Assembly: GCA_003243965.1 (NCBI GenBank)
Contig: QHBO01000031.1
Span: forward strand, 26,455-90,454
Direction of reading: 5' to 3'
Length of the DNA: 64,000 bases
Source of the DNA: Chloroflexota bacterium
GTDB lineage: Bacteria > Chloroflexota > Limnocylindria > QHBO01
Of the stretch, positions 24,432 through 45,245 are shown one piece after another; position 1 is the first letter of the stretch, and each line of letters opens with the position of its first letter. Made by a program: the position numbers and the translations under genes. The notes under the pieces were generated by a model, which saw only the letters and a program-made list of their open reading frames with translations, did not search any database and was not told the origin of the DNA.

Positions 24432-24593
24432 CGGGGGAAGGCTCCATGCTCACCCGCTGCGGACGGGCTGCCAGCGGGTGGCCGGGGGATGATAGCCGCG
24501 ATCCGGGGAAGGGTTCTGTGGCCCTATCGAGCCAGTACCCGCTAGGCGCTCAGCGGCCGATGGCCTGGGCGGCGGGCGCCCGGTCGCTCCCTG

Positions 24594-27008: not shown

Positions 27009-27247
27009 GCGCTCCCCCTGAGGGTCGGGCCAGCCGGCTTGGCCAGCCACCGACCGGACTGGTACGAATGGTACGCCGCCAGGCGCGGTACGTCACCCTG
27101 AACGCCAGAGGTACCACCTCTTCCGTTGCCTCCTGCCAACATCTTGTGCACAAATCCGGCACGTATCCACACCGCGGGCGGTCTTCGCCAGTAGACGGCC
27201 AGTACCCGCGATGGTTAAATGGTCCCGGCCGAATTAACGGACCTCTA

Positions 27248-29989
27248 GTGCCAAACCGACTGCCCCGGGGGAACCTCTTGTTCAAACTCCGCGCCATCGT
27301 GACGCTGTCGCTCGTGTGTACGCTCCTGTTGCCGGGTGCGATCCGCGCCGCCGCGAGCCCGCCGCTGCTCGTAGTCGCGCAGGGCCTGACGGACATCACG
27401 ATTGAGGTCACCTGGACGGCGGTGCCGAACGCCACGAGTTACACCCTGGTCCGCGACGGCACGCCGATCGCCACTCAGAACGGCACGCTGTACGACGACA
27501 CGGGCCTGGTTCCGCTCTCGACCCACAACTATGCCGTACAGGCAACGGTCGGCGGCGTCCTGTCGTCCGCATCGAGCTCTGCGACGGCCACGACGCAGGC
27601 GGCGCGAGATGCAGCTCCGCCGGGTGCGACCGGAGCCATCTCCGTGACGAGCATCACGTCCAGTTCAGCTGCCCTGAGCTGGACGCGGGCGTCGGACAAC
27701 GTTGGGATCGAGGGTTATCGGATCATGCGTGGACCCGGCGGCGCATCGCCGTCCGGGCTGACGGACATCTGGACGACGGACGATGTTGCCTCCTACCAGG
27801 CGACGCATCTTCAGGCTCGCAAGAGCTACACGTTCGGCGTGGTGCCGCTGGATGCGGCCGGGAACACCGGACCGATCACAACGGTGACCTTCACGACACT
27901 CGCCTCGTCTGACACCACGGTCCCGGCGGCGCCATCGAGCACCAGCGTTGCCGCCAAGGCGTTTTCGTCCTCCCGGATTGACCTGCTGTGGGCGAGCAGC
28001 AGCTCATCGGACATCGCCGGCTACCAGATCTCGCGAGACGGCACCGCGAACGTGATCGGGACCGTGCTTCTGCCTCTGCGCAACAACTTCTCGGACAACG
28101 GGCTGGCAGCGGCCAGCCAGCACAGCTACGCCGTGCGGGCGTTTGACTCCGCAGGAAACGTCTCCTCCTGGACGTCCGGTCGGATCGCAAGGACGCTCGC
28201 GAGCGGGACCGTTCAGATCGCCCGCGGGCCGTATGTGCAGTCCACGACAGCGACATACGCCCGGATTGCATGGTGGACGAACCTGGCGGTGAAGAGCGTC
28301 GTGAACTACGGGCAGGGTGCGCTGACCGGCCAGCTGGTCGACCCGGTGGCTCGGACTGAACATGCGATGCTGGTCGGGCCCCTGGCGGGCGGCGCAACCT
28401 ACCAGTATACGGTCGGCGACGGAATAGTCGCGGCGGCCGGCAGCTTCCGCACCGCACCCGCGCCCGGGACGGCGTTCACGTTCGCGGCCATCGGGGACTT
28501 CGGCGGCGCGAGCGCAGCCGAAACGCAGAACGCCAACCTGATCGCCAGCTCCGGTAGCGACTTCCTGCAGACCTTGGGCGATAACGTCTATCCCGAGGCG
28601 CAGGACCCCAGCTTCGCCACCCAGTACTCGGACTTCGACGGCCGCTACTACAAGCAATTCGGATCGGCATTCGCGAAGATGACACTGTGGGCTGCGAACG
28701 GCAACAAGGAGTACTACGGCAACGGCGCCTTCTGGACGCACATGTGGCTCCCGAACAACGAACGCTGGTACAGCTACGACTGGGGCAACGCGCACATCCT
28801 TGTGCTGGACACCGAGCAGCGGTACGACTCTGCCTCGCCGCAATACGCCTTCGCTCAAGCGGATCTTGCGGCCCACCAATCATCGACGTGGCGGATCGTG
28901 GCGGTCCAACGGCCGCCGTACAGCTCCGCGACCGCCAACTCGAGCTCGGTCGGGGTGCGGCAGTACTTGGTCCCGCTCTTCCAGCAGCAGAACGTCCAGC
29001 TCGTGCTGTCCGGCAACACGCACAACTACGAACGCACGTATCCACTCATCAACGGCGCGCCGCAGGCCCGCGGCGTGACATACGTCGTCTCGGGCGGTGG
29101 CGGCAATGGGCTCAACGGGTTCAGCCTCGCGGCACCCTCATGGAGTGCGTTTCGGAAGGCGACCTACGAGTACGTGGCGGTCGACGTCGCCGCCGGGGCC
29201 CTGACCGTTCGGGCGATCAACAGCGCCGACGGGACGGTGCTCGACTCGACGACGATCACCGCCCCAGGTGGTTCCGGGACGCCGACCCCGACCGCCAGCC
29301 CATCGCCGGTCCCGACACCGACGCCAACGCCCGCGGCATCGGTGTCCCCGACGCCCGGGCCAACGCCCATGGCCCCGATCTTCAGCGACGGCTTTGAGTC
29401 GGGAAGCATGGGCAGCTGGACCACGAAGAGCACCAACTGGGCATTCCCGAGCTCCCCGGTCCACTCTGGCACCAAGTCGGCCCAAGTCACCACCACAGCG
29501 GGTGCGAGCTTTGCCAAGAAGGTGCTGCCCTGCGTGGCGCCGTGCAGCGGCGGCTACGCAGGCGGCTACTTCCGGACCTGGGTGTACATCACCGGGAATC
29601 ACAGTCAGATCAACCTCATGCGCCTGCGCTTCGGCAGCGACAGCTCGCTCGGCTACCTGTCGGTCACCGCCCAGGGCAAGCTGCAGCTGCGCAGCGACAT
29701 CGGCGCCACGACCTGGACCAGCACCACCGACTTCCCCACCTCCCTGGGCTGGCACAGCCTGGAGCTGCACGTCACGGTCAACGGCGCGACGGGCGGCTCA
29801 AGCGAGGTGTGGCTCGACGACGCCAAGGTCGCCGACCTGTCGCTGACCGGCGTCAACTGGGGCGTGGTCGGCACCAACAACATCACCAAGATCCAGATCG
29901 GTGAGGTCGCTCCCACCGGCTCCTGGACGGTGGCCTTCGACGACGTGGCCTTCGATACGGCCAAGATTGGGCTGGCACCGGTCCCGTAG
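27248..29989 (+). CDS. Secreted multidomain metallophosphoesterase (FN3 repeats + PAP-like + concanavalin-like C-terminal domain)
   Basis: Signal sequence LFKLRAIVTLSLVCTLLLPGAIRAAA; FN3 repeats; GDFGG, LGDNVYPE, NGNKEYYG, SGNTHNYERTYP; C-term FSDGFESGSMGSWT. Start GTG 27248 or TTG 27278. Confidence 0.85.
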   Translation: MPNRLPRGNLLFKLRAIVTLSLVCTLLLPGAIRAAASPPLLVVAQGLTDITIEVTWTAVPNATSYTLVRDGTPIATQNGTLYDDTGLVPLSTHNYAVQATVGGVLSSASSSATATTQAARDAAPPGATGAISVTSITSSSAALSWTRASDNVGIEGYRIMRGPGGASPSGLTDIWTTDDVASYQATHLQARKSYTFGVVPLDAAGNTGPITTVTFTTLASSDTTVPAAPSSTSVAAKAFSSSRIDLLWASSSSSDIAGYQISRDGTANVIGTVLLPLRNNFSDNGLAAASQHSYAVRAFDSAGNVSSWTSGRIARTLASGTVQIARGPYVQSTTATYARIAWWTNLAVKSVVNYGQGALTGQLVDPVARTEHAMLVGPLAGGATYQYTVGDGIVAAAGSFRTAPAPGTAFTFAAIGDFGGASAAETQNANLIASSGSDFLQTLGDNVYPEAQDPSFATQYSDFDGRYYKQFGSAFAKMTLWAANGNKEYYGNGAFWTHMWLPNNERWYSYDWGNAHILVLDTEQRYDSASPQYAFAQADLAAHQSSTWRIVAVQRPPYSSATANSSSVGVRQYLVPLFQQQNVQLVLSGNTHNYERTYPLINGAPQARGVTYVVSGGGGNGLNGFSLAAPSWSAFRKATYEYVAVDVAAGALTVRAINSADGTVLDSTTITAPGGSGTPTPTASPSPVPTPTPTPAASVSPTPGPTPMAPIFSDGFESGSMGSWTTKSTNWAFPSSPVHSGTKSAQVTTTAGASFAKKVLPCVAPCSGGYAGGYFRTWVYITGNHSQINLMRLRFGSDSSLGYLSVTAQGKLQLRSDIGATTWTSTTDFPTSLGWHSLELHVTVNGATGGSSEVWLDDAKVADLSLTGVNWGVVGTNNITKIQIGEVAPTGSWTVAFDDVAFDTAKIGLAPVP

Positions 29990-30073
29990 CGCACAGGGGA
30001 GACGACGGCTACGGTCGCCGATCGGGGCCTGGCCGACAACGGTAGGTTGACCACACCCGGGAGGGGAGGGGAC

Positions 30074-31498
30074 ATGGGGGTGACCGTTGGACGTCGAGCC
30101 TGGATGCTGGCCGCGGCCGTGGTTTCGCTGTCGATGGTGCTGCCACCGCTGCAGCCGACCGCCAACGCCGCGGTGTCCACCTCACTCCGCCGCTACCCCT
30201 ACCTGACCGATGTGGTCGGCCCGTACGCCACCGTCAACTGGGCGACCGCCACCTCGGGAACCGCATCGGTCAAGTACGGGATCTCCGGCAGGGAATCGTG
30301 CACCGCGCACAGCGTGGCTGCCACGCGCCTCGGGATCGTGGTCAACGGCAAGGCCGAGTCGCAGTGGAAGGCGCAGCTCACCCTTTCGCCCAACACGACG
30401 TACTGCTACCGGGTCTTCCTGGGCAGCACCGACCTGCTGGGCAGTGATGCCTCGCCCAAGTTCGTGACGCAGCTGCCGGCCGGCTCGACGTCGGCGTTCT
30501 CGTTCGCCGTCTTCGGCGACTGGGGCCAGGGACCATCGTCCAACACGCACCAGGCCAACATCCTGAAGCGGATCGCGCAGAGCGGGGCGCGCTTCGCGAT
30601 CACGGTCGGCGACAACGGCTATCCCTCGGGCAGCCAGACGAACTACGGGGACCTGGTGCAGGACGGCACGAACGTGAGCGGCGTCTTCGGCCCGAACTTC
30701 TGGCGCGTGGCCGGCGCCTCGCTGCCGATCTTCCCGGCCATCGGCAACCACGGCTTCGTCCGCTCTGACGCCGTGCATCCTCACTTCGCCAACTGGCCCC
30801 AGGACCGGGCGGTCGCCACCTCGGGCGGCACCTACCGCACGGAGACCTACTGCTGCGTCAGCGGCTCCACGTCGGTCAAGGCGCCGTCGGCCTGGTACGC
30901 ATTCGATGCCGGCAACGCGCGCTTCTACGTCCTGGAGGCCGCCTGGACCGATACGAGCGTCAGCAACGACACCGCCTACCAGCGCGACCACAGCTACCAC
31001 TGGCTGCCGGGGAGCCCGGAGTACGAGTGGCTGGCGAAGGACCTGGCGGCCAATCCCACCAAGGCCAAGTTCGCGTTCTTCCACTACCCGTTCTACTCCG
31101 ACGACAGCACGGAGCCGTCCGATCCGTACCTGCTCGGAGCCCAGAACCTGGAGGGCCTGCTGGGCAGCAACGGGGTGCGGCTGGCGTTCACCGGGCACGC
31201 TCACATCTACCAGCGCAACCGCCCCTCACCGATGGGCGTGGTCACCTACGTCACCGGCGGCGGCGGAGCCAAGATGGAGCCGGTGGCGGGCAAGGGCTGC
31301 AGCGCCATCGACGCATACGCCATCGGCTGGGCGTACGCCAGCAATCGTGGCAGCGCCTGCGGCGCCGCCACGCGGCCGACCAGCCTGGATCAGGTGTTCC
31401 ACTTCCTGAAGGTGACGGTCAACGGCAAGTCGGTGACGGTCACGCCCATCGACGAGATGGGGCGCGTCTTCGACCAGCAGACCTATACCCTGCCCTGA
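30074..31498 (+). CDS. Secreted purple acid phosphatase-like metallophosphoesterase
   Basis: Signal peptide; RYPYLTDVVGPYATVNWAT N-terminal PAP Ig-like domain; FGDWGQG, VGDNGYPSG, IGNHGF, TGHAHIYQRNRP. Confidence 0.87.
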   Translation: MGVTVGRRAWMLAAAVVSLSMVLPPLQPTANAAVSTSLRRYPYLTDVVGPYATVNWATATSGTASVKYGISGRESCTAHSVAATRLGIVVNGKAESQWKAQLTLSPNTTYCYRVFLGSTDLLGSDASPKFVTQLPAGSTSAFSFAVFGDWGQGPSSNTHQANILKRIAQSGARFAITVGDNGYPSGSQTNYGDLVQDGTNVSGVFGPNFWRVAGASLPIFPAIGNHGFVRSDAVHPHFANWPQDRAVATSGGTYRTETYCCVSGSTSVKAPSAWYAFDAGNARFYVLEAAWTDTSVSNDTAYQRDHSYHWLPGSPEYEWLAKDLAANPTKAKFAFFHYPFYSDDSTEPSDPYLLGAQNLEGLLGSNGVRLAFTGHAHIYQRNRPSPMGVVTYVTGGGGAKMEPVAGKGCSAIDAYAIGWAYASNRGSACGAATRPTSLDQVFHFLKVTVNGKSVTVTPIDEMGRVFDQQTYTLP

Positions 31499-31505
31499 GC
31501 GGCGC

Positions 31506-31531
31506 GATGGGGGCCGTCGCCGGCCCCCATC
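31506..31531. terminator. Bidirectional terminator-like hairpin between convergent genes
   Basis: GATGGGGGCC-gtcgcc-GGCCCCCATC, perfect 10-bp stem. Confidence 0.75.
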
Positions 31532-31538
31532 GGTTCGG

Positions 31539-33131
31539 CTAGCGGAAGAAGTCCCGCATCGGTGCCGCCGAGGCATCGCCGCCGGCCAGGGGCGCAAGCC
31601 CCCACGAGGTCTCGACGGTCCTCAGGAGCGAGTAGTGGTTGTACGCCGTCGACCGACGCCCCGGGTTGACGGAGCTGCCGACCATGATCGTCGCCACCTG
31701 GTTGACGGACGTGAAGTCGTCCTCGTCCCAGGTGATCAGCAGCAGCGAGTTCTGTGTCCGCCAGGCGGGTGACGCGAAGATCATCGACGTCGCGCTCCGC
31801 AGCCAGGCGTCGCCGGTGGCCACCGAGCAGTCGTGCATGTCGTTGCACACGTTGGGAGTGATCCACACGAAGTTCGGCGTCGTGACCGCGCTGGCCAGGT
31901 CACCGGCAAGCCCCGTGTACGGAACGTCGTGCGCCGCGCAGCGTGCCGTGTTGGAGCGGAACGGGGTGAAGTACACGAACGGGTTGTGCTTGGCGGCATA
32001 GCCGTTGCCATTGGTCGTGCCGCACGGCGCCGACATGCCCTCCATGTAGGCCCGCCAACTCTTGCCGGCCCCCTCGATCCGGTCGCCGATCATCAGGCCG
32101 TTGACCGGGCAGGAGCTCGGCGAGCAGTCACTGGTGATGCCGTAGGTGCTGCCACCCACCATGGCGATGTAGTTCGGCAGGCTCGGATGGGTGATCGCCC
32201 GATAGTTGGTGGCCAGCCCGTAGCTGTTGGCCAGCGAGTTCAGGTAGGGCGCCGACGCGTTGCCGATCACCTGGTTGAAGGCCCTGTTCTCCTCGACGAT
32301 GACGAAGATGTGGTCGAAGTACGGGACCCGGCCGCTGCTCGCGGGCGGCGGCTTGGGCGTCGGCTTGGGGGTGGGTCTTGGCGTCGGCCTGGGAGTCGGC
32401 GGTTGCGTGGGCTCCGGCGAGGGTGTCGCGCCCGGCTGATCGCTGGGCCCGGGGCCGCCGGGTGTCGCACCGGGACTGGCCGATTGATCAGGGCCGCCCC
32501 CGACACCTGCCGTTGTCTCCGGCGCCACGGCCGGCCGGCCGCCGACGAAGGTGCGGGCCACCACGGCCGAAGAGGCGGGGGGCCTGGCAGAGGAGCCCTT
32601 GGAGGAGCCTCTGGCCGACGCCCGCGGGCTTGCCGTCGGCTGATAGGTGCCGTTCGGCGCAGGGGTGGCAGCCGGCTCGATCACGGTCAGTTGGACCGAA
32701 GCCAGCGTCTGTCGGGGCGAGCCGGAGACCGCCGAGACCGCGTGCGCTCCCAGCGCGGACCCGGTGGGCACGCTGATGCGCAGGCTGAACGTCCCGGTCC
32801 GGTCAGCGGCGAAGGTGGCGAACTTCGCCTGGGAGTCAAAGCTCAGGAAGCCGCGCGATTCCGCGGCAAAGCCGGTGCCCCGCACCTCGACCGTGCCGCC
32901 CGCCGACTGCGCCGCCGGGTTCAGCGTCAGCCTGGGACCTGCTGCATCGGTCACCAGCCGCGGAATGATCAGGGCGGGCACGAGGAGGACCATCGCTATC
33001 GTGGCCGACCAGGTGGCGAACGCGTGCGACCCCGCGGACGCCGTGGTCGACGCCCTGGCTGCCGCAGTGCCGTGCGCCGGCGGCGCCGGCGGGTTGTGAC
33101 GGGTGAAGGGTGACAGTGACTTCTGTCGCAT
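31539..33131 (-). CDS. Exported PF04185-type phosphoesterase (phospholipase C/acid phosphatase-like) with Ig-like domain
   Basis: TM/signal; AGPRLTLNPAAQSAGGTVEVRGTGF Ig-like; T/P/K linker; FDHIFVIVEENRAFNQVIG..APYLNSLANSYGLATNYRAITHPSLPNYIAMVGGS..; LLLITWDEDD. Confidence 0.85.
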   Translation of the reverse strand: MRQKSLSPFTRHNPPAPPAHGTAAARASTTASAGSHAFATWSATIAMVLLVPALIIPRLVTDAAGPRLTLNPAAQSAGGTVEVRGTGFAAESRGFLSFDSQAKFATFAADRTGTFSLRISVPTGSALGAHAVSAVSGSPRQTLASVQLTVIEPAATPAPNGTYQPTASPRASARGSSKGSSARPPASSAVVARTFVGGRPAVAPETTAGVGGGPDQSASPGATPGGPGPSDQPGATPSPEPTQPPTPRPTPRPTPKPTPKPPPASSGRVPYFDHIFVIVEENRAFNQVIGNASAPYLNSLANSYGLATNYRAITHPSLPNYIAMVGGSTYGITSDCSPSSCPVNGLMIGDRIEGAGKSWRAYMEGMSAPCGTTNGNGYAAKHNPFVYFTPFRSNTARCAAHDVPYTGLAGDLASAVTTPNFVWITPNVCNDMHDCSVATGDAWLRSATSMIFASPAWRTQNSLLLITWDEDDFTSVNQVATIMVGSSVNPGRRSTAYNHYSLLRTVETSWGLAPLAGGDASAAPMRDFFR

Positions 33132-33236
33132 AGGATTTGACCTCCCGGGGGATGGCCGTCCCTTTGGAAGGGCGACCGAGGGGGACGAATGAAAACGAGT
33201 GCGGCCGATGGGCCGCCGGCGGTCAGCCGGCAGCCA

Positions 33237-34721
33237 TCAACCGGCGGCGATCAACCGCGCAAGCTCGTTCAGGTACGTCCGTCCGTAGCGGAGGGTCGGC
33301 TCCAGGTAGGAGTTCTCGACGAACTCGTTCCAGCTGACGCCGAACCACCCGTTGGGGTTGGAGGGCCGGTTCAGGTTCCAGACCGCGTCCAGCGTGGCCA
33401 CTCCCCTGCGCGGGATGCAGCTGCTGCCACCGATCATCTGGGTGTTGTAGCCGGGGGTGAAGGGCGCGAAGAACGCCTTGCCGGCGGCGCGAACCTTGGC
33501 CGCCAGCATCTGCACCTGTGAGCCGGACTGTGGGTTCTGCCACGGGTCCTGGCTCGACCAGTAGAAGCCGGTGCCGTCGAACAGCGCCGCATCGCGGGCC
33601 CAGGAGATCCAGGTGTTGTCGCCGACCAGGAACAGCCTGCTCTTCTCCACGGCACTCACCGCCGCGACCGTCGAGTACGAGAACTGGCGGCTGGCGATGA
33701 ACATCGTCAGCGGCTCGGTGCTGTAGCTGTTGCCGAACGCGGGGTTGTTCCCGTAGCGAAGGCGGAAGTACTCGAGGTCGTTGATGACCTGGGACGCCGG
33801 ACGGCCGTAGTTGCCGTACGCCTCGAGGCCGAGCGCCAGCCGGAACCGGGTGCCGTGCGACGCGTTGAAGGCGTTCACGCGGGCCACCAGCAGATCGAGC
33901 CTCGCGTTGTAGCCCGATGACGACGGGCTCTGGCCCGGCTGCCCGGTCCCCTGCCAGCTCACCAGGAAGCCGGTGATCCGCGCGGAGACCGCATCGGCGA
34001 TGTGTCGATCGAAGGTGGCGCCGTTGCCCTGGTCGTACAGCCCCTCGGTGGGAACATCGGTCAGACGTCCGCCGGGGTACACGGACCGCGGGTTGCAGCC
34101 GGTGCCGTCAAGGGTGGCGGGCAGCGGCAGCCTGGCGGCGGCCATCGGGTATCCGTTCCCGAGCCGCTCCGCCCAGTGGCGCGGCGTCCACCACAGGTAG
34201 TAGTGGATGTACACCTGCTGTCGCGCGGCCGCAGGCACGATCGGCTGGCCGACCGGGGGCGGCACGGGCTTGGGCGTCGGCTTCGCGCTCGGCCGGGGAG
34301 TCGGCTTGGGTGCGACCACGGCAACCGGTGCGGAGACCACACGACTGGTGGTCCCATTCCCGCCATCGGCCGGGGCCGTGGGCTGGGGTGAGCGGCCGGG
34401 GGCGCGCGAGGTGCCGGACTGCGTCCGTGCGCTGGCACCCGCGGATGCCCCGGGGCCGGTAGTCGGCTGCGAGGAGCCGTTCGTGCTGGGCGCCGCGGCG
34501 ACGCCGTTGCCGCCGGCTTGCGAGCTGCCGGTCGCGACGGCCTTGGGGGTCACGTCGGGGCTCGGCGAATCGGAGCGGGCGGCGAGCATCGGGATGACGA
34601 GCACAGGCACCATGGCGATCGCCGACAGCCCCACCCAGGGACGTCGTGATGCGGTGCTGCGTCGGTTGGTCGTGGTTCCCTCCGGGCGTGGGCTACCCGG
34701 CGGTGGGGGTGTGTGCAGCAT
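33237..34721 (-). CDS. Exported GH99-like glycoside hydrolase domain protein
   Basis: N-term TM; VYIHYYLWWTPRHW.., ITGFLVSWQGTG, VSWNEFVENSYLEPTLRYGRTYL (WNEF.E...EP...YG signature of GH99-like proteins). Confidence 0.75.
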   Translation of the reverse strand: MLHTPPPPGSPRPEGTTTNRRSTASRRPWVGLSAIAMVPVLVIPMLAARSDSPSPDVTPKAVATGSSQAGGNGVAAAPSTNGSSQPTTGPGASAGASARTQSGTSRAPGRSPQPTAPADGGNGTTSRVVSAPVAVVAPKPTPRPSAKPTPKPVPPPVGQPIVPAAARQQVYIHYYLWWTPRHWAERLGNGYPMAAARLPLPATLDGTGCNPRSVYPGGRLTDVPTEGLYDQGNGATFDRHIADAVSARITGFLVSWQGTGQPGQSPSSSGYNARLDLLVARVNAFNASHGTRFRLALGLEAYGNYGRPASQVINDLEYFRLRYGNNPAFGNSYSTEPLTMFIASRQFSYSTVAAVSAVEKSRLFLVGDNTWISWARDAALFDGTGFYWSSQDPWQNPQSGSQVQMLAAKVRAAGKAFFAPFTPGYNTQMIGGSSCIPRRGVATLDAVWNLNRPSNPNGWFGVSWNEFVENSYLEPTLRYGRTYLNELARLIAAG

Positions 34722-34886: not shown

Positions 34887-36113
34887 CTAGGGTGCGCGCC
34901 CCCTGCGACGACGCATGATGACCACGAAAATGCTCACCGCCACGATCGCGGCCAGCACCGCGACGCCGCCGGCCGCGCTGGCCGCAAAGTACTCCCGGGT
35001 GTCGACCGGGGCCTGGGGTGCCGGGGTTGGCGTGGAGGTGTCGACGGGCAGCGACTGGGGTGGCGCTGACGCGGCTCCGGTCAGCTGCCGGGTCAGCTCC
35101 AGGTAGGTGGTGCCGTAGTTCTTGCTGGGCTCGATCTGGGAGTTCTCGCTGAACTCGTTCCAGCTGATGATGCCGATGGCGTCAGGATTGCTGACCGATG
35201 CGCCGCGCCACGCGGCGCGGAACGTATCGCCGTTGCGGCGGTCGATGATCGTGGTCCCGCCCACCAGGCGGGCATCGAAGCCGGGTGCAGCCGGCGCGAT
35301 CCACTTCCCGTTGTTGGCATGGACCGCAGACGCGAGATCGTCGAGGCGCTTCTGGTAGCCGCCGGTCTTGAGCGGATCGGGCGACGACCAGTAGTACGAG
35401 TCACCGTCGAACGCGTCCTGCTTGGCCTGGTAGTCGGTGGCGCTCTTCTCCGAGCCGAGGAGCAGCATCTTCGACGGCGCGCCGATTGCGGTCCGCACTC
35501 CCTGGATCTGCTGCAGGCTGTACTTCCAGGTTCCGCTCCATACCACCGCCGGCTTGCCCCACACCCCGAAGACCGGGCTCCTGCCGTAGGTGGCGTAGAA
35601 CCATTGCATGTCGGCAGCGATCCGCTTGGGATCGAGCGGGTTGCGGCCGAAGTCCAGGCCCTGGTAGAGCAGGATCAGCTTGAAATTCTGCCGCTCCGCC
35701 TCGGCGACCAGCTTGGCGAGAGGGTCATCCAGACGCTTCTCGTGCTTCCAGCTGACGATGAAGCCGTCGATCCCCGCCTTCTTCGCGGCCTGAACGTGGT
35801 CATAGATGATGTACTTGTCGTTGCTCGAGTACTTGCCGGCGGTCGGCAGGTCCGTCTTGGCCCGGTCCCAGCTCTTGGCCGCGTACCAGATGTAGTAGTA
35901 GGCGAACACCAGCGGCTTTGCCGGCGCGGAGACGCCCGGCGGCGGCGGCGAGCCGGACGAGCGTGGCGTAGTGGCAGCCGTCTGCCCGGCGGCAGCCGTC
36001 TGCCCCGCGGCCGGGCCGGCACACGCCACCAGGACGAACAGGAAGACCAGCAGAGCTCGGCCACCGGCCGGAAGCGACGCGGCCAACGGCCTGCGCGCGA
36101 CGTTGATGCTCAT
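34887..36113 (-). CDS. Exported, membrane-anchored GH99-like glycoside hydrolase
   Basis: Signal peptide; VFAYYYIWYAAKSWDRAKTDLP, IDGFIVSWKHE, ISWNEFSENSQIEPSKNYGTTYL; C-terminal TM (GGVAVLAAIVAVSIFVVIMRRRRG). Confidence 0.78.
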   Translation of the reverse strand: MSINVARRPLAASLPAGGRALLVFLFVLVACAGPAAGQTAAAGQTAATTPRSSGSPPPPGVSAPAKPLVFAYYYIWYAAKSWDRAKTDLPTAGKYSSNDKYIIYDHVQAAKKAGIDGFIVSWKHEKRLDDPLAKLVAEAERQNFKLILLYQGLDFGRNPLDPKRIAADMQWFYATYGRSPVFGVWGKPAVVWSGTWKYSLQQIQGVRTAIGAPSKMLLLGSEKSATDYQAKQDAFDGDSYYWSSPDPLKTGGYQKRLDDLASAVHANNGKWIAPAAPGFDARLVGGTTIIDRRNGDTFRAAWRGASVSNPDAIGIISWNEFSENSQIEPSKNYGTTYLELTRQLTGAASAPPQSLPVDTSTPTPAPQAPVDTREYFAASAAGGVAVLAAIVAVSIFVVIMRRRRGRAP

Positions 36114-38080
36114 GCGATCGGCTTCGCCTGGGGCATGGGTTCCCCGCACACACCGCAGTATCGGGCGCGGGCGGGCACCGCGTGGTGACATCGGCGACAG
36201 ACGGCCTGACCGCTGCGCTTCGCGTCGCGCGCAGCCGCCCGCGCCGCCGCATCTGCCACGCGGCGGCCGGTGCGGGTCGCCGTGTTCGCTGCGGGCTGTG
36301 CGGCTGCCGGCGGTGCGGCGGGCGGCGTCGCAGCCGCGGGGTGTCCGGTGAGCGGCGCCACGGCGGCCTGCTCCTGCTCCAGCGTCCAAGCCGCTGCATC
36401 GGTCTGCGGAGCCGGTGCCGCGGCCCCCACCCCGGCGGATGGCCGCGCAGCCCGGCCCGCCGCCGCCAGCGTTGCGGGCACCGGTTCACTGACCCGGGGT
36501 GCCGCATCGGCTGCGGGCGAGCCCCCCGGCTTGGCCGGACGGTTGCGACGGACCGCTCGGAACAGCGCCCGGGCGCTCGCCAGCTGTCGCCACCTCGGCT
36601 CGCGGCGAGGAGCATCGAAGGCTGCGGCGGTGGCTGCACCGGGCGCCAGGCCGCGCCGCGCAGCCCGGCGGGCACGCAGCGAGTTGGCCACCGCCAGGAT
36701 CTGCTGCCGTCGGCCGAGCCACAGGAGCACCGCCACCACGATCAGCATCAGCGTCGCGCCGACCGCGAGGTCCAGGTAGGTGATGACCCGGACGACGGCC
36801 ACCTGGCTGCGAGAGAGCGTGACCGGCGTGGGCGGAACGATACCGCCCGCGTGCAGGTTCAGCGTGTAGTCGCCACGCGGCAGGCGCGGGAAGAGGACCT
36901 GCGAGCTGCTGCCGCCGAGCGCGGCGGTGCGCACCGTCCCGTCGGGGAAGACGATGTCGAGCTTGCCCCCGACTGCCGAGCCGAACAGCGCGTCCTGCGC
37001 CTGCACGCCAAGGTCAAAGAGCAGCAGGCTGATCTTCAGTGGTTTCCCCGTCGGGGCCGGGGCGAAGATCTGTGCCCCTCCGGTCACCACGTTGCTGCCC
37101 GCCATGCGGACGTCCAGCACGCGCCAGCTGCGCGGGACCGCCTCCAGGAAGCCGGCGCGCTTGATCGCCGTGGCCGACTCGAGCCACCAGTTGTCGTAGG
37201 TCGCGTACCGGCACGGAGTGGTGACCGCCGGATCCGAGGTGCACTGGATCCCCGCGGTGCCGGTCACGGTGAGCGCCTGGATCTGATCCGGCGGGACGAT
37301 GTTGCCGCTGCCGTCGTGGAACTCGAACGAGCTGCGGTAGCTTACGCTCAGCCCCAGCTGGAGCGTCATATCACCCCTGACCTCCACCACGCGCTCCCCG
37401 GAGAAGACCTCGTCGCTCCAGCGCACGAACGAGATGCGGGTGTTGCTGCCCGGAGTCCCGTCGCTCGGCCGACAGAGGAGCGGCTTGCCCTTGGGGTCGA
37501 CGCAGGCACGCATCGGATACGAACCCAGCCTGTCGACCGAGAAGCGCACGCTACCGGCCCGCGTGACGGCCGTCGTCCCCCCGAACGTGATCGGGATGCC
37601 GTCGGTGACCGGCACCGTGTCGACCCGGAGCGTCACCGGCAGGAGGCGCAGGTAGAGCATCGATCGCGAGGCGGTCACCAGCCGGCTCCCCGGGTAGCTG
37701 ACCACGATCGTCGCCACCCCGGCCGGCGACACCTCGGCCGCCCGAATCTTGAAATCGGCGACCCCGCCGCTGACGCTGGCGGTGTGCACCGGGCCGCCGT
37801 TGATCGTCAGGAGCAGGAGGCGGGAGCTGCCCGGCGAGCCGGAGGTGGTGAAGACCGCCCTCACCGTCAGCTCCTGCCCGATCTTGCACTCCGGCAGACC
37901 CGAGGGTCCGTACGGACAGGACTTGCCGGTCGCGTCCCTGGGCACCTGGATACCGATGGCGCTGGTGGCCGGCGCGATCGCCGCGACCGGCCGGGCGGCG
38001 ACCAGGATTATCCCAGCCATCAGCGCCCCACCCAGGGCGGTCAGCAGCGCGGCCTTCACCAGCCGATTCCGAAGCCTCAT
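36110..38080 (-). CDS. Uncharacterised exported membrane protein with C-terminal cytoplasmic zinc ribbon
   Basis: Signal/TM N-term; about 400 aa extracytoplasmic region; TM (YLDLAVGATLMLIVVAVLLWLG); C-term VCRRCHHAVPARARYCGVCGEPMP. ATGA overlaps with both neighbours. Confidence 0.75.
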   Translation of the reverse strand: MRLRNRLVKAALLTALGGALMAGIILVAARPVAAIAPATSAIGIQVPRDATGKSCPYGPSGLPECKIGQELTVRAVFTTSGSPGSSRLLLLTINGGPVHTASVSGGVADFKIRAAEVSPAGVATIVVSYPGSRLVTASRSMLYLRLLPVTLRVDTVPVTDGIPITFGGTTAVTRAGSVRFSVDRLGSYPMRACVDPKGKPLLCRPSDGTPGSNTRISFVRWSDEVFSGERVVEVRGDMTLQLGLSVSYRSSFEFHDGSGNIVPPDQIQALTVTGTAGIQCTSDPAVTTPCRYATYDNWWLESATAIKRAGFLEAVPRSWRVLDVRMAGSNVVTGGAQIFAPAPTGKPLKISLLLFDLGVQAQDALFGSAVGGKLDIVFPDGTVRTAALGGSSSQVLFPRLPRGDYTLNLHAGGIVPPTPVTLSRSQVAVVRVITYLDLAVGATLMLIVVAVLLWLGRRQQILAVANSLRARRAARRGLAPGAATAAAFDAPRREPRWRQLASARALFRAVRRNRPAKPGGSPAADAAPRVSEPVPATLAAAGRAARPSAGVGAAAPAPQTDAAAWTLEQEQAAVAPLTGHPAAATPPAAPPAAAQPAANTATRTGRRVADAAARAAARDAKRSGQAVCRRCHHAVPARARYCGVCGEPMPQAKPIA

Positions 38081-39558
38081 CCCGGGCGGCGCCGGAAACG
38101 GAGCCGGCGGAGGCGTGCGCGCGAGAACGGCAGGGCCAGCAGGCCGATGAGCATCAGCGCCACCACCGCGGCGTAGATGCTCATCAGCGTCAGCCGGGTG
38201 CTCTGCGGCGCCGACTCAACCGCCGCGTAGTTCTGCGCGGGGAAGATCGGCGGCGCCGGGGGCCCGCGAAAGTCGAGGCGGGAGGCGATGCTGTTGGCCG
38301 TCTTGTCGCGGATTGCGATCGGCGCCACCCGCCAGTTGTCCTCGATGAAGCGCAGGATCGACGTGTAGTCGTACACCGTGCTGTCGATCGTCCCACGCCG
38401 AACGAAGGGCGAGATGAAGATCGCCGGCACGCGGAACCCGTACCCGTCGAGGTCCGGCAGCTGACGAGGGACGACGTGGTCGTAGTAGCCGCCCCAGTCG
38501 TCATGGGTCAGCACGAACAGGCTGCTGTTCCATGCGCTGCTGCGCATCACCGAGGTGACCAGCGAGGCGCCGAAGTTCTGCCCGACGGTCACGTTGCCCG
38601 GCGGATGCTCGCTCGAGCTGCTCGGGACGATGTAGGAGACCGCCGGCAGCGTGCCGTTCTTCAGGTCGGTGTAGTACTGGGACAGGTCGACGATGTTCTT
38701 GTACAGCGCCGGCGTGTCGAGGAAACGCGGGAAGGCGAGCAGCGGCGCCCACACCACCTGCGGCGCTGCGCCGCCCCCGCCCGGCCGCTTTGGGCAGGTC
38801 TTGGCCTGCAGGCAGCGGTACGTGATCCGCGGGTCGTAGTTCTGGATGTACATCTTCCAGCTCACCCCCGCGGCCTGCAGGCGGTCGAAGATGGTGGTCG
38901 CGGTGAAGCCACCCTTTGGGATCCCGCCGTGCGAGCCGGCGGCCTGGCCGGCGACCCAGAACAGGTGATTGGTCTGACTGCCGCCCCACGCCGAGCTGAA
39001 AAACCGGTCGGCCAGCACATAGTCCTTGGCGAGGTTCCAGTAGAGCGGTAGGTCGCGCCCGTCCCAGTAGCCCATCGGTGCATTCTCGTCACGGGCTCGC
39101 GCCCGTTGGGCATAGACGAAGCCGTTCATCGCGCCGCTGTTGTAGGCGGCCAGCGCAGACGCCTTGCCGTGGTCCGGGTCGGCCGTGCCGCGCGTCGCGA
39201 TGTGATACGGCTTGATGCAGCCGGTGGCCGGCGGCAAGGACGGCTGCGCCGGCGTCGGGACCGGAGTCTGCTTCGGCTTCACGGTCGGGGCACTGGATCT
39301 AGACGGGCTCGGCGAGGGCGTCGCGAGGGTCAGTGCGCGCGGCATGCAGGCGTCGGAGGGAATCCCGTCAGCGCCGGGGAACGTGCCGAAGTAGTTGTCG
39401 AAGGTGTGGTTCTCCTGCATCAGCACCAGCAGGTGCTCGATCTTGGTCGCTGGCTTCGGCTCCGGGCGAGGGCTTGCCGCCTGGGCCGAGGAGGGCAGCA
39501 GGGTGACCGCCGAGATGATGGCCGCGAGCGCCATCCTGCCGAGCGTGCGGCTGCTCAT
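38077..39558 (-). CDS. Exported, membrane-anchored PF04185-type phosphoesterase (phospholipase C-like)
   Basis: Signal peptide; KIEHLLVLMQENHTFDNYFGTFPGADGIP (diagnostic PF04185 N-terminus); VLTHDDWGGYYDHVVP; C-terminal TM. Confidence 0.9.
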   Translation of the reverse strand: MSSRTLGRMALAAIISAVTLLPSSAQAASPRPEPKPATKIEHLLVLMQENHTFDNYFGTFPGADGIPSDACMPRALTLATPSPSPSRSSAPTVKPKQTPVPTPAQPSLPPATGCIKPYHIATRGTADPDHGKASALAAYNSGAMNGFVYAQRARARDENAPMGYWDGRDLPLYWNLAKDYVLADRFFSSAWGGSQTNHLFWVAGQAAGSHGGIPKGGFTATTIFDRLQAAGVSWKMYIQNYDPRITYRCLQAKTCPKRPGGGGAAPQVVWAPLLAFPRFLDTPALYKNIVDLSQYYTDLKNGTLPAVSYIVPSSSSEHPPGNVTVGQNFGASLVTSVMRSSAWNSSLFVLTHDDWGGYYDHVVPRQLPDLDGYGFRVPAIFISPFVRRGTIDSTVYDYTSILRFIEDNWRVAPIAIRDKTANSIASRLDFRGPPAPPIFPAQNYAAVESAPQSTRLTLMSIYAAVVALMLIGLLALPFSRARLRRLRFRRRPG

Positions 39559-41201
39559 GCCTGCTTCTTCTCCACGAACGGCTGCAGCGAGTAGATGCGG
39601 ATCACGGTCTCCAGCTGCTTCTTGCCGCCGGCGTCGATCACCTCTGCCTTCTGCTCGTAGACGAGCACGCCGTTGTACTTCTTCACGTAGTTCATCAGCA
39701 CCTTGTCGAAGTGGGGCGAGCGGGCCGCGGACCAGATATCCCAGGCCGCGTAGTGGAGCTTGAGAGTGCGGATCGCCAGGTCGGGGTTGATGATCGGGTC
39801 ATAGGCCGGGTTGCGGTGCAACGGGTTGGGGCTGACGCTCAGGCCCTGCGAACGACGATGACCATAGAACTGAATGAGGTTCGAAAGCGTTGGCCCGATG
39901 GTCATGAACGCGGCGCCCTCTGGTACGTGGTTCTCGATCCACGTTCCGGCCTCGCGACCACCTGGGAGCCCACCGGTGCCGGCCAGCGACCCCGTCGCCG
40001 AGCCGCCGCCAAGATTGCCGAGACTTGCCACGCCGATGCTCGCCACCAGGGCCACCGAGATGACCGCGGCCACGCTCCGACCGATGGTCGCGCTCCGTCG
40101 CGGCTCCATGCCGCGCCGCGCGGCCAGCCAGCCGGCAAGCCGGTCGGGCACCACGTCGATCAGCCGGCAGGCGACGATGATCAGCGCCGGCGTGATCGGG
40201 AGCAGGTACTGGTAGCCCTTCACCGGCCAGAACTGGAAGAAGATGAGCGGGACGAAGATCCAGGCCAGCAGCAGGCGGTCCTGCCACGAGGCACGCCGGA
40301 TGGCGAGCACCACGCCGGCGATGGCCGCCAGCAGGAGGAGCCAGCCGAGCGCGGTGGGCAGGATCTCCGCGTAGAACGTGAAGGTGTGGTTCGGCCGGCG
40401 GAGGAGCTGCCAGACGAGAAACTGCCGGGCGGTGCCGGACGCATTGCTGATCATGATCGAGATCGGGTAGGGCGACAGCGCGACCACGAACGCGAGCAGC
40501 GCGACCACCGCCCGCCGCCAGCCGAGGTGCACGCTGGGCGTCATCAGGATGAAGGCGACGGCCACCGGAAGGACCAGGATGGCCGTCTCCTTGGCCAGGA
40601 AGGTCAGCCCCGCGGCGAACGCGGCGACGTACAGGTAGCGCACCCTGTCCAGGGCGACATAGCGCGCCAGCAGCAGCATCGTCAGCAGGAAGAGGGTCGT
40701 CTCCGGGCCGTCGAGCAGGACCTGGCGCGTGACGCTGATGTGATACGGAAGGATCGCCAGGATCAGCGCTGCGCCGGCGCCGACACGGCGGTTGAAGAGC
40801 TGTGCCCCAAGGAGATAGATAATCGGGATGGCAGCCACGCCAAAGGCGACCGAGACCATTCGCGCGGCCGTGTCGCTAACTCCGGATTGGAAGACCAGCG
40901 ACAGGAGAAACTGGACGAGGAGCGGGTGCGCGCGGAAGATTGCGAAGAACTGCGCGTACTCCGGATTGCCGGCGAGCGCGGCCGCCTGGCCGGCGTACAC
41001 CGCCTCGTCGCTGTTGAAGCCAACCGCGCCGAGGCCATATGCACGAAGAACGGCGGCGGCAATCACCGCTACCGTCACCACTGCCCAGGGGACGATGAGG
41101 TCGACCCGGAGACCGGGTGACACGCGCGTTCGCGCGATCGGTGCTGCCTCCACGCTACTCGTGACAAAGCGCTCGGGGGTGGCGCCGGTGCGTTCAGTCA
41201 T
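39555..41201 (-). CDS. Integral-membrane GT39/PMT-like glycosyltransferase
   Basis: Multi-TM; AYGLGAVGFNSDEAVYAGQAAALAGNPEYAQFFAIFRAHPLLVQFLLSLVFQ (acidic luminal loop of GT-C/PMT), KETAILVLPVAVAF; 4-bp overlap with the next gene. Confidence 0.85.
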   Translation of the reverse strand: MTERTGATPERFVTSSVEAAPIARTRVSPGLRVDLIVPWAVVTVAVIAAAVLRAYGLGAVGFNSDEAVYAGQAAALAGNPEYAQFFAIFRAHPLLVQFLLSLVFQSGVSDTAARMVSVAFGVAAIPIIYLLGAQLFNRRVGAGAALILAILPYHISVTRQVLLDGPETTLFLLTMLLLARYVALDRVRYLYVAAFAAGLTFLAKETAILVLPVAVAFILMTPSVHLGWRRAVVALLAFVVALSPYPISIMISNASGTARQFLVWQLLRRPNHTFTFYAEILPTALGWLLLLAAIAGVVLAIRRASWQDRLLLAWIFVPLIFFQFWPVKGYQYLLPITPALIIVACRLIDVVPDRLAGWLAARRGMEPRRSATIGRSVAAVISVALVASIGVASLGNLGGGSATGSLAGTGGLPGGREAGTWIENHVPEGAAFMTIGPTLSNLIQFYGHRRSQGLSVSPNPLHRNPAYDPIINPDLAIRTLKLHYAAWDIWSAARSPHFDKVLMNYVKKYNGVLVYEQKAEVIDAGGKKQLETVIRIYSLQPFVEKKQA

Positions 41202-41328: not shown

Positions 41329-43023
41329 TCACCCAGCGGTCCGGATGGAGCCTTCCTCGACCGTTTCGACGGCGGCGTCCGGGCTGATGGGGATGGCGAT
41401 CACCTCCGCGAGGTGAGGAGCGTTCTCCGGGGTCACATAGCCGTCGGCGAAGACGAGGGGAAGCACCTCGGCCCACTCATGACCGGGGACCCGGATCCGC
41501 CACATCGAGGCGTTGCCGAGTGCCTGGCGCAGGAGCTTCTCCTCCTTCTCCCGCAGCGCCGGGTAGTCGGACTCGCCGATACGGATATGCGGGGCGAAGG
41601 TGGAGAACGGCGGGAACCCGTACGCGTCGTCGGTGTTGTCGATCAGCTGCGGGACCGCATCGTCACGGGTGATCCGCTCGCGCAGTGACTCGCCCCGCTC
41701 CATGATCACCACATGTCCGATCGGCGCCTCGGTGCCGATCTGGCAGTCGAGGAGCGTGTTGATGTGGTACTTGGGCGGCGGAACCAGGATCTGAACGACC
41801 GAGTTGACCGACATGATCGGCAGGTTCAGGTTGCCCATGAAGCGACCCACCGAGCGGCCCGACTTCGAGTGGAGCCGGCTCTGGATGGCGAGCGCCGCGC
41901 GCTGTCGGCGCGGGAGCTCTCCGCCCTTGATCGACGCCATGGTGTGGTAGCTGAGGGTCATCGGCTTCGGGTAGCAGACCGCGCGGCCGTCCGGGGTGAT
42001 GATCGTCATGTCGTCGCTCAGGAAGTGGTACGCGTGGTCGCGAACCAGCTTGATGACCGTGCTGGTCTTGCCGGTATCGGTCTGCGCCGAGAGGAGGACC
42101 GCCTTGCCATCGACGACGAGCGACGCGGAGTGCAGCAGCACGTGGTCGCGCGACACGAGCAGGAAGCGGAGCAGCGCCTCGATCACGTTGGTGTACAGCA
42201 CGTGGCGCGACTGGGCCAGGAGCGGCGTGACGTCCACCTTGATCGGGTCACCCATCGTGATCCGGAAGTTGGCGCCGGCCATTCCCAGGTGCTCGAAGTA
42301 GCTCAGCTTGGTGTCCTTCTGCTCGAAGCGCGTGTGCATCGAGGGGAAGGCGCCAACCCGGGCGACGCGGATCTGGATGTCCGCCTTGCCGCTGGTCTCG
42401 GTGCGGAAGTAGCGCAGCTCCGGAAGCTCGACGTCCGAGTCGAGGCGAATCACGCCGGCGACGTCGTACACGAACTCGAAGGCTGAGCTGGGGCCAACCG
42501 CGCTGAGATGACGCTTGGGGGCGTCGGCCCCGACCACGCCGAGGTCACCGAGCGGCTTGTCCGCGACGACGGCCCAGATCCAGCCATCGGCCACGACGTA
42601 GCGCACCATGAACAGCGCGACCAGGGTGAAGAGGTTCGCCATCAGCGGGTTGAACCCGATGACGCTGGCCAGCAGCCAGAGCATCGGTACGCGCAGCAGC
42701 AATGTCGCGTTGTTGAGGCCGAGGAACGAGACGAACCGAGAGACCGCTCCACGTCGGGCGGTTCGACCGCCGAAGGCCCAATGCTCGACGCCAACGAAAT
42801 TCCAGGTCGAGGAGAATTGGGTGGCGACCACGGCGGCCACCAGGATGTTGATGTTGAACGGTGCGGATGTCAGCAGCGCGAACGCCAGCTGGTTGACTAC
42901 AAGCCCCGACAGCCCGACGAGGGCGAAACGGAACGCAGGAGGAACCGGGCGGGGAAGGGCGAACGAGCGTGTGGCCAACGGAATAAAACCCCCAATGTCT
43001 TTAGCCGCCGGAAGGGCACCCAT
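41329..43023 (-). CDS. GtrA-like membrane domain fused to HprK/P-loop kinase-like domain
   Basis: N-term FRFALVGLSGLVVNQLAFALL...TQFSSTWNFVGVEHWAFGG (GtrA). C-term LLHSASLVVDGKAVLLSAQTDTGKTSTVIKLVRDHAYHFLSDDMTIITPDG (Walker A AxxxxGKT; HprK/PEPCK-like). Start is uncertain. Confidence 0.8.
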   Translation of the reverse strand: MGALPAAKDIGGFIPLATRSFALPRPVPPAFRFALVGLSGLVVNQLAFALLTSAPFNINILVAAVVATQFSSTWNFVGVEHWAFGGRTARRGAVSRFVSFLGLNNATLLLRVPMLWLLASVIGFNPLMANLFTLVALFMVRYVVADGWIWAVVADKPLGDLGVVGADAPKRHLSAVGPSSAFEFVYDVAGVIRLDSDVELPELRYFRTETSGKADIQIRVARVGAFPSMHTRFEQKDTKLSYFEHLGMAGANFRITMGDPIKVDVTPLLAQSRHVLYTNVIEALLRFLLVSRDHVLLHSASLVVDGKAVLLSAQTDTGKTSTVIKLVRDHAYHFLSDDMTIITPDGRAVCYPKPMTLSYHTMASIKGGELPRRQRAALAIQSRLHSKSGRSVGRFMGNLNLPIMSVNSVVQILVPPPKYHINTLLDCQIGTEAPIGHVVIMERGESLRERITRDDAVPQLIDNTDDAYGFPPFSTFAPHIRIGESDYPALREKEEKLLRQALGNASMWRIRVPGHEWAEVLPLVFADGYVTPENAPHLAEVIAIPISPDAAVETVEEGSIRTAG

Positions 43024-43321
43024 GCGGCAGGGCACGGTTGGATACGAAACGCTGCCTTCCCACAACGCCTCGCTGCGAGGACTGGAACCTGGATATGAGT
43101 GCAAGCGGGCGGCACTTCCACGGCGCAGATACCTGCGTGGTCGATGGGAGAAGGGAGTACCTTCCGCGATCCGCAGACTAGTACTTCTGGGCTATGCGCG
43201 TCAACCGAAACCGCGCCGAAACGTTGCTCGCCTGCACCGTGGAACGGGGCTTGCTCGAGGACCCGGTGAGCGCCGAAACATTAACGCTCGACTCACTGGT
43301 TGATAATCAAGCCCACCTAGC

Positions 43322-43561
43322 ATGAACCGCATGTTCCAAGGGCTCGACTGGCTGCTGCGGCGTTCGCAGACCGCGCTGGACGCGGCGATGCCGCGCGCAC
43401 GCCGCGAGGAGCAGCTGGAGTCGCTTCCGTGCTCGCTGTGCGGAGCGCCGGCGACGGGCTGGATCTTCACCACCGACATGCGAGGCGGGGTGCAGGAGAT
43501 CGAGGGGTCAGCCGTGTGTGCGGCTCACCAGCGCGAGACGATCAGGAAGGTGGCTGGGTAG
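43322..43561 (+). CDS. Small CxxC protein
   Basis: MNRMFQGLDWLLRRSQTALDAAMPRARREEQLESLPCSLCGAPATGWIFTTDMRGGVQEIEGSAVCAAHQRETIRKVAG; convergent 20-bp overlap with the next gene. Confidence 0.6.
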   Translation: MNRMFQGLDWLLRRSQTALDAAMPRARREEQLESLPCSLCGAPATGWIFTTDMRGGVQEIEGSAVCAAHQRETIRKVAG

Positions 43562-44351
43562 CCTCCGGACGACGGCGCCGACCACGTCGCGTCGGAAAGG
43601 TCGCGAGCCGCAGGCGGAGCACCATCAGCAGCGCCTCGCGCATGATCGCCCCACTCATCTTGGAGTTGCCGGCGACGCGATCCCGGAATGTGATCGGGAT
43701 CTCCACGATCCGTGCGCCGCGCCGGAACGCGGACCACGTCATCTCGATCTGGAACCCGTACCCGTTGGCGTAGCCCGACGAAAGGTCCTGCGCGGCGAGC
43801 GTGTCGCGCCGCCACGCCTTGAAGCCGCCGGTCAGGTCGCGAAACGGCAGGTGGAGCACAGTGCGCGCAAACAGGCTGCCACCGCGGCTGATCACCCGCC
43901 GCTTGGTGCTCCATCCCGGCGTCCCGCCCCCGGCCACGTACCGGCTGCCGATCACCAGGCCGACCCGCGGGTCGTCGACGAGCGGCTTCAGCAGGCGAGG
44001 CAGATCCGATGGGTCGTGACTGAAATCGCAGTCCATCTGCACGACATACTCGATCCCGGGTCGGGCGAGCGCCTCTCGGAACCCGGCGCGATAGGCCGCC
44101 CCCAGGCCTTCCTTGCCCTGCCGATGAAGGACGCTCACCGTCGGGCTGGCGGCAGCCAGGCCGTCGGCCAGGACGCCGGTGCCATCCGGCGAGTTGTCGT
44201 CGACCACCAGGATGTTGATGCCCGGCGCCGCTGCTCCGATGGCGCCCACCATCTTCTCGAGGTTCTCGCGCTCGTTGTAGGTGGGAAGCACCACGCAGGT
44301 CGCGCTGTACATATGCCCGTCCGCTTCCAGATCCGTCAATTGATCCCCCAA
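43542..44351 (-). CDS. GT2-family polyprenol-phosphate mannose synthase-like glycosyltransferase
   Basis: VVLPTYNERENLEKMVGAI, ILVVDDNSPDGTGVLAD, VVQMDCDFSHDPSDLPRLL, DLTGGFKAWRR; DPM1/Ppm1-type signatures. Confidence 0.9.
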   Translation of the reverse strand: MGDQLTDLEADGHMYSATCVVLPTYNERENLEKMVGAIGAAAPGINILVVDDNSPDGTGVLADGLAAASPTVSVLHRQGKEGLGAAYRAGFREALARPGIEYVVQMDCDFSHDPSDLPRLLKPLVDDPRVGLVIGSRYVAGGGTPGWSTKRRVISRGGSLFARTVLHLPFRDLTGGFKAWRRDTLAAQDLSSGYANGYGFQIEMTWSAFRRGARIVEIPITFRDRVAGNSKMSGAIMREALLMVLRLRLATFPTRRGRRRRPEATQPPS

Positions 44352-44436: not shown

Positions 44437-44802
44437 TCACCGCCGGGCGCCGCCGGCAGATCCCGCGGCCAGGCGGGCGGCCAACTCATCACGGAGGCGC
44501 GACCGCGCGATCATCGGTCCCAGGCCGGCGCGGCGGGCTGCCGCGTGACCGTCGAGGTCGCGATGCGGGCCGAAGAGCAGGATCGCAGGCCCGGCGGGTC
44601 CGGCCTCATCGCGCCAGTCGCTGAGGGTGGTCCCCCACCCCGGCTGGCGCTCGCCCCAATCGACGACCAGTAGCTCGACGCCGCCAGCCGGGGGCAGCTC
44701 GTCCGGTGCCGCCACCCGACGCACGGTGACGCCCGCGCGGGCAGCCGCGTCCTCGATCCACGACCCGGCGATCAGGTCGGGGACGAGGGCGACAATGCTC
44801 AT
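44437..44802 (-). CDS. Hypothetical receiver-like protein
   Basis: 121 aa, alternating alpha/beta pattern (VALVPDLIAGSWIEDAAARAGV..ELLVVDWGE..AILLFGP..); ATGA overlap with the upstream gene. Confidence 0.55.
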   Translation of the reverse strand: MSIVALVPDLIAGSWIEDAAARAGVTVRRVAAPDELPPAGGVELLVVDWGERQPGWGTTLSDWRDEAGPAGPAILLFGPHRDLDGHAAARRAGLGPMIARSRLRDELAARLAAGSAGGARR

Positions 44803-45245
44803 TTGGAGGCCGCGTTCGGTCCGTTGGAGCCGGTGGCGGCCGCAGTGGTGGCGCCGTCCGGGTCGCGGGCCGGCGGGGTCTGCGCGAGCAGCCCGATCGC
44901 CTCCGGATAGCCCAACGGACGCAGCCCCTGGTGCGCGTGGCCGTTGGCGGCGGGCTCGTACCCGTACCGCGAGATGCGCATCGGATAGATCCCGATCGCC
45001 ACCGGCGCCCGCACCTCGACCGACAGCTCGAGGCCGATCTCATCGCGGTTCCAGAGCTCCCCGAGTTTCGCGGCTTCACGATCCGGGAGCCCGATGAAGG
45101 CGACGGTCCCGTTCCGCTGCAGACGCGACATCGCGTCGGGATCGTCGAGTCCGAATCTTCGGCGGAGCTCCGCGACCGGGACATATGCGCGCGAGCTGAT
45201 GAATCGCCGAAGGCTCGAAGTGCTCGGCCGCTTGCTGGCATTCAT
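44799..45245 (-). CDS. Hypothetical protein
   Basis: 148 aa; operonic overlap with 44437..44802. Confidence 0.55.
   Translation of the reverse strand: MNASKRPSTSSLRRFISSRAYVPVAELRRRFGLDDPDAMSRLQRNGTVAFIGLPDREAAKLGELWNRDEIGLELSVEVRAPVAIGIYPMRISRYGYEPAANGHAHQGLRPLGYPEAIGLLAQTPPARDPDGATTAAATGSNGPNAASK

Follow-up and report, generated by a model that had tools for sequence, protein, structure and literature searches.

A four-helix membrane domain of the GtrA/DPMS family joined to a predicted HprK/PEPCK-fold kinase in a conserved, probable surface-glycan gene cassette of Chloroflexota and Actinomycetota

Results

Main finding

In a 64,000-nucleotide stretch of DNA from a Chloroflexota bacterium, hereafter the window, we identified a gene that joins a four-helix membrane domain of the GtrA/DPMS family to a predicted kinase of the HprK/PEPCK fold. 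The domains themselves are known; their conserved combination and the gene system around them are undescribed as far as our literature search found, which returned no characterisation of a GtrA + HprK fusion, no paper on an 'HprK-related kinase' and no description of the gene system. Tentatively, and at something below an even chance, we propose that the fusion supplies the membrane and kinase portions of an assembly that synthesises a polyprenyl-phosphate-sugar, and that it phosphorylates a lipid-linked sugar or a glycan precursor from which a surface (phospho)mannan is made.

The fusion gene

Positions 41329-43023 contain the gene on their minus strand, as a single uninterrupted frame encoding 564 residues from the ATG at 43023; the plus-strand reading of this segment was rejected as not being the gene. 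The frame is open up to this ATG and to a TTG at 43104, and the true start is probably the TTG at 42978 (41329..42978, minus strand, 549 residues), because the protein from ORF residue 16 on (MATRSFALPRP...) aligns with the start of the orthologue at locus L001 (MSTRVFALRRI...). The latter carries the same fusion and shares 61% identity with the window protein. Between the two, dN/dS is about 0.23 for the membrane part and about 0.19 for the kinase, indicating purifying selection on both. The tail and the linker (residues 151-183, 42475..42573, minus strand) are unconstrained, with pN close to pS in the linker and a pLDDT below 50 over residues 146-179. An assembly or frame artefact was rejected on the basis of orthologues with the identical fusion and of these dN/dS values. 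The frame is intact across about 42480-42560, where a first, sequence-only reading of this DNA had advised checking it, and an assembly error there is excluded because independent genomes share the junction.

The membrane domain

PF04138 matched residues 32-150 (42574..42930, minus strand) with E = 1.7e-16, the fusion protein scoring 60.9 bits against a curated cut-off of 26.1, and the AlphaFold model places four transmembrane (TM) helices at residues 29-52, 60-83, 93-122 and 126-153. The GtrA-like four-helix N-terminus recognised by the sequence-only reading is thus borne out; its label 'flippase' found no support as such, since this part is an equally good match for the membrane domain of DPMS from Pyrococcus furiosus (PfDPMS; phmmer 1.1e-4, Foldseek 9ep0/5mlz at probability 1.00) and adjoins a DPMS-like GT2 gene. 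Because of this match in both sequence and fold, and of a DPMS-like GT2 that is adjacent or fused, we favour reading it as the membrane domain belonging to a polyprenyl-phosphate-mannose synthase of the PfDPMS type, which is at least as likely as a flippase. The PfDPMS-type layout, GT2 followed by the four-TM domain, occurs as neighbouring genes in the window and as a single chain in nine loci with an intact kinase. In PfDPMS the TM domain is dispensable for catalysis in detergent (PMC5526996).

The kinase domain

Pfam gave no significant match on the C-terminal half, and phmmer against the PDB likewise failed to recognise it. Single-sequence searches being blind to this half, profile and fold comparisons were needed. 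The region assigned by them spans residues 184-525 (41449..42474, minus strand). Its AlphaFold model, computed for the kinase alone, reached pLDDT 80 and pTM 0.80 (pLDDT 74 for the whole protein). The best 28 Foldseek matches of this model were all PEPCK or HprK/P, the next being noise, and the whole-protein model matched PEPCK, HprK/P and the TM domain of PfDPMS. TM-scores were modest, at most 0.54 on HprK cores, and we therefore regard the kinase as a divergent representative of its superfamily. When a profile built from 22 relatives was compared with solved proteins, HprK ranked first, with a weak E of 0.58 and with the His, the Walker A Lys and the Asp-Asp pair in register. HprK_rel_A (TIGR04352) matched the region at E = 7e-6, its 25-26 bits lying below the cut-off of 200, and matched 16 of the 22 aligned members, at best with 7e-9. 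The ScmC profile matched weakly; TIGR00679 gave 12.7 bits against a cut-off of 240, so that the protein does not classify as a canonical HprK/P. A plasmid search returned only weak HprK-related matches, covering 24-47%.

The Walker A motif AQTDTGKT (residues 313-320, 42064..42087, minus strand) fits [AG]x4GK[ST], and the Asp-Asp pair in FLSDDM (residues 337-338, 42010..42015, minus strand) aligns with the DD motif of HprK. Conserved motifs in the 22-member alignment are LLHxA, [AG]xTDTGKT, F.SDD, PKP.T.S.HT, QSRLHS..GR, PPPKY and DAY.FPP; the conserved residues are mostly polar, and the Walker A motif with its Lys/Thr, the His and the Asp-Asp pair are kept in 21 of the 22 homologues, the exception being locus L048. 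By its predicted fold together with these Walker A, His and Asp-Asp motifs, the C-terminal half belongs to the PEPCK/HprK P-loop kinase superfamily. The HprK/PEPCK-type P-loop C-terminus claimed by the sequence-only reading was thus confirmed by the AlphaFold and Foldseek comparisons that it had called for, and by the motifs in register.

L048 (7585-9822, genome G376) encodes a divergent GT2-TM-kinase fusion with Walker A changed to GDMGYG and the His lost, likely a pseudokinase, to judge from its sequence, in a different polysaccharide locus. That this lineage keeps the domain despite the loss of both motifs would agree with a non-catalytic nucleotide-binding or scaffold module. We hold such a role to be very unlikely, as the other 21 aligned homologues keep the His, the Lys/Thr and the Asp-Asp pair and as purifying selection, measured between the window and L001, is strong.

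Distribution and architectures

About 25 loci in Chloroflexota and Actinomycetota carry the GT2, TM and kinase parts. Relatives were found in 20 of the 399 sampled Chloroflexota genomes, with L001, L002 and L006-L008, and, within Actinomycetota, in Leekyejoonella, Flexivirga, Micromonospora and Phycicoccus; the actinomycete count of 3/398 comes from a sample centred on one carrier, that carrier included. As genome contigs were scanned with short peptide patterns, distant relatives outside the two phyla may be missed. Three arrangements were observed. The parts are split as GT2|TM|kinase in L006 and L007, with a stop, AGGAGG and a new start between them; they form a double arrangement, GT2|TM-kinase, in the window, L001, L002, L035 and L050; and they are fused into one GT2-TM-kinase chain in L003-L005, L009, L042, L043 and L045-L047. 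L041 has a TM-kinase fusion with no GT2 match nearby. At L044 (7548-9907, G346) a frame change appears to separate GT2 from TM-kinase, which could reflect a genuine split or an error in the sequence. At every locus that allows judgement the kinase gene adjoins the TM gene or is fused to it. In the tree the window clusters with other double forms and the triple forms fall in two places. These results indicate natural fusions and splits of three shared parts, and a fusion that is real and old. The sequence-only reading knew of no characterised protein joining the two families, and we found none in the literature; the fusion is, however, not unique, as it recurs within the clade.

The conserved cassette

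Across Chloroflexota families and Actinomycetota the genes recur in the order GT2-TM-kinase-transferase-PF04185-Ig-GH99, with metallophosphoesterase or PHP-type genes sometimes inserted in or near the cassette. On the minus strand of the window, the upstream partner of the fusion is a polyprenyl-phosphate-hexose (mannose) synthase-like GT2 (43542..44351; PF00535, 6e-27). On its other side, also on the minus strand, lie a GT39/PMT-like GT-C transferase with FNSDEAVYAGQA and a DE motif (39555..41201; PF13231, 5.6e-19), a secreted PF04185 phosphoesterase with a C-terminal membrane anchor (38077..39558; 6.6e-76; TM 458-476), whose position in the cassette is conserved, an Ig-like membrane protein with, here, a Zn-ribbon tail (36110..38080; TM 438-456; a weak Big_3_5 match and co-located homologues), and a GH99/GH71-like, endo-alpha-mannosidase-like protein with a C-terminal TM segment at 382-400 (34887..36113; PF16317, 2.3e-12). 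These last four genes are linked by successive ATGA overlaps. The transferase is assigned to the GT39/PMT-like type by its PMT_2 match and by a DE motif that lies in its first outer loop, within an invariant N-x-DEA.

More loosely associated are a second, GH99/WbsX-like secreted protein (33237..34721, minus strand; PF14307, 0.0018; homologues at L038 and L039), a second PF04185 phosphoesterase (31539..33131, minus strand; 1.9e-31) and secreted metallophosphoesterases at 23169-24431 and 24594-27050 on the minus strand and at 27068-29989 and 30047-31498 on the plus strand (PF00149/PF14008/PF16656/CBM96), homologues of which occur near several cassettes. Positions 23169-34721 thus form a dense run of secreted enzymes, one of the four metallophosphoesterases bearing the CBM96 domain. 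Upstream of GT2, at 44437-45245, stand two small unannotated genes (148 and 121 residues); their counterparts in L001, of 67% and 42% identity, likewise precede GT2. PHP-type metallohydrolases, a third phosphoesterase-like class, were seen near the cassette at L046 (16382-19258, CehA/McbA-like) and L038 (8116-8817), and in Phycicoccus (L009, 7412-12050) two transferase genes flank the GH99-like gene.

The cassette transferase subfamily (membership at E<=1e-60) occurred in 16 of the 399 Chloroflexota genomes, and all 16 carried the kinase. Conversely, the kinase is intact in 19 genomes, and three of these lack the full transferase: in G239 and G375 the contig ends, and in G271, which bears L041, a GT87-like GT-C gene stands beside the kinase. 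The L048 locus has none of the cassette transferase, PF04185, Ig and GH99 genes, and another PMT-like gene lies upstream of it.

The sugar is likely mannose, because the window GT2 found its best solved match in PfDPMS (E = 4e-33), the GH99-like protein is nearest to the Bacteroides-type endo-alpha-mannosidase 4acy/4acz (7e-11), and at L038 a ManC-like guanylyltransferase and a mannose-6-phosphate-isomerase-like cupin are encoded upstream of GT2. The probable product of the gene set is a sugar coat on the cell surface that contains mannose and may be phosphorylated.

Discussion

Proposed mechanism and alternatives

In the mechanism that we propose, GT2, as a separate protein, would charge the lipid at the cytosolic face and the four-TM domain would hold the lipid-linked sugar and perhaps help to move it. 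The domain of HprK/PEPCK fold, presumably cytosolic and catalytically active, would move a nucleotide phosphate onto a hydroxyl within the pathway, most likely on a lipid-linked sugar or glycan precursor; the phosphorylated precursor would be added outside the cell by the GT39-like transferase, and the anchored phosphoesterase and the GH99-like enzyme would trim the product, making up a surface (phospho)mannan system. With four TM helices, the kinase should face the same side of the membrane as GT2, in agreement with PfDPMS (PMC5526996). This proposal is consistent with the kinase fold, the motifs kept in 21 of 22 homologues, the three GT2/TM/kinase architectures, the cassette order, the 16/16 co-occurrence with the transferase and the mannose clues, as well as with L048, where loss of the kinase motifs goes with a locus devoid of the cassette transferase, PF04185, Ig and GH99 genes. 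By analogy, it has a precedent in HprK homologues that phosphorylate hydroxyls of non-HPr substrates, sugars being added onto that phosphate in pseudomycoidin (PMC8498205). Against it, the phosphoesterases may serve phosphate scavenging, the split-form kinase itself lacks any membrane segment, and the L041 partner is a different, GT87-like GT-C. To our knowledge, moreover, the characterised HprK-type kinases target Ser of proteins or peptides and never sugars.

The kinase could instead be regulatory, sensing, like HprK/P, the state of energy or metabolites, and phosphorylating Ser/Thr of GT2, the TM domain, the Ig-like tail or another protein so as to switch the supply of mannose-lipid. Its nearest characterised relatives are indeed Ser kinases, HprK/P acting on HPr (PMC9138534) and the lasso-peptide kinase, an HprK homologue, on lasso precursors (PMC8498205), and it is tethered to the enzyme that it would control. 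However, HPr was not found in 7 of the 25 carriers, three of these being 99%-complete genomes, and a canonical HprK in none of the 25 (PF07475, none over cut-off); HPr was therefore rejected as an obligate substrate, and the HPr loop is not what the kinase generally serves. The kinase furthermore tracks the transferase cassette, and no conserved protein target was identified. We judge regulation to be rather unlikely.

Carrier recycling, which we rate as unlikely, would have the kinase re-phosphorylate polyprenol inside the cell after the anchored phosphoesterase has dephosphorylated it outside, GT2 then recharging it in a closed polyprenol cycle. It accounts for kinase, GT2 and TM domain on one chain and for outer-face phosphoesterases in the operon. 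PF01219, the family to which undecaprenol kinase belongs, was present in 1 of 19 intact-kinase Chloroflexota genomes versus 190 of 379 others (Fisher p = 7e-5) and, counted by genus, in 1/9 versus 103/214 (p = 0.04); the degenerate-kinase genome G376 has PF01219. The contrast is suggestive but confounded by kinship: in families f1 and f2 the genomes listed are without PF01219 whether or not they carry the cassette, and G375 combines PF01219 with the kinase. The mostly polar character of the conserved kinase residues also speaks against a polyprenol substrate, and we know of no HprK-fold lipid kinase.

It seems improbable to us that the kinase phosphorylates, ahead of export, a peptide or protein acceptor destined for secretion that the transferase then glycosylates. 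Lasso-peptide kinases of the superfamily do phosphorylate peptides (PMC8498205), and the kinase region matches HprK_rel_A and ScmC weakly. Among the neighbours scanned, where small ORFs were covered non-exhaustively, we nevertheless saw no recurrent small precursor ORF in the cassette and no precursor peptide, cyclase or PqqD-like gene. HprK_rel_A and ScmC are presumably families that belong to peptide cassettes.

With modest confidence we thus rank phosphorylation of a lipid-linked sugar or glycan first; protein regulation and polyprenol recycling also fit. The sequence-only reading had imagined lipid-linked sugar transport coupled to phosphorylation: lipid-linked sugar handling joined to phosphorylation fits the conserved cassette, and the flippase label is the part that found no support as such.

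Significance

These natural fusions connect an HprK-type kinase with the first membrane step of extracellular glycosylation. The known substrates of the kinase superfamily are HPr, peptides and oxaloacetate. Action on a lipid-linked sugar or on the lipid carrier would widen this range and reveal that Chloroflexota and some Actinomycetota possess a surface-glycan system not characterised so far. We see nearly an even chance that a kinase of this fold, built into a mannose-lipid synthase, acts on a polyprenyl-linked sugar or the polyprenol carrier, which would give the superfamily a substrate class that is new to it, within a bacterial system for (phospho)mannan or carrier recycling that is undescribed. 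Should it regulate the synthase, it would connect metabolic state directly to glycan supply. The system is testable, since its carriers include named actinomycetes (Leekyejoonella antrihumi C5-26, Flexivirga endophytica CGMCC 1.15085 and Micromonospora sp. RP3T).

Comparison with known systems

The kinase shares with HprK/P the superfamily fold and the Walker A, His and Asp-Asp motifs, but it is sub-cut-off in Pfam and NCBIfam, membrane-tethered, present in seven carriers where HPr was not found, and marked by the additional conserved motifs PKPLTIS.HT, QSRLHS..GR, PPPKY and NTDDAYGFPPF. HprK_rel_A, HprK_rel_B and the lasso-peptide kinases are its nearest named sequence families, yet the score lies far under the cut-off (25 versus 200 bits) and the kinase here sits in a glycan cassette. 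PEP carboxykinase provides the best Foldseek matches (E 2e-5) but is a longer enzyme, of about 10% identity and in another gene context. PfDPMS (5mlz/9ep0) has the same GT2 catalytic domain and four-TM domain, in the order shared by the triple fusions; it stops at the TM domain (PMC5526996), whereas here a kinase follows and the window GT2 is a separate gene. With GtrA of the GtrA/B/C O-antigen glucosylation system, finally, the fusion has in common PF04138 and a nearby polyprenyl-phosphate-sugar synthase and GT-C transferase, and it differs by its C-terminal kinase, a DPMS-like GT2, another transferase and the added phosphoesterases and GH99-like enzyme.
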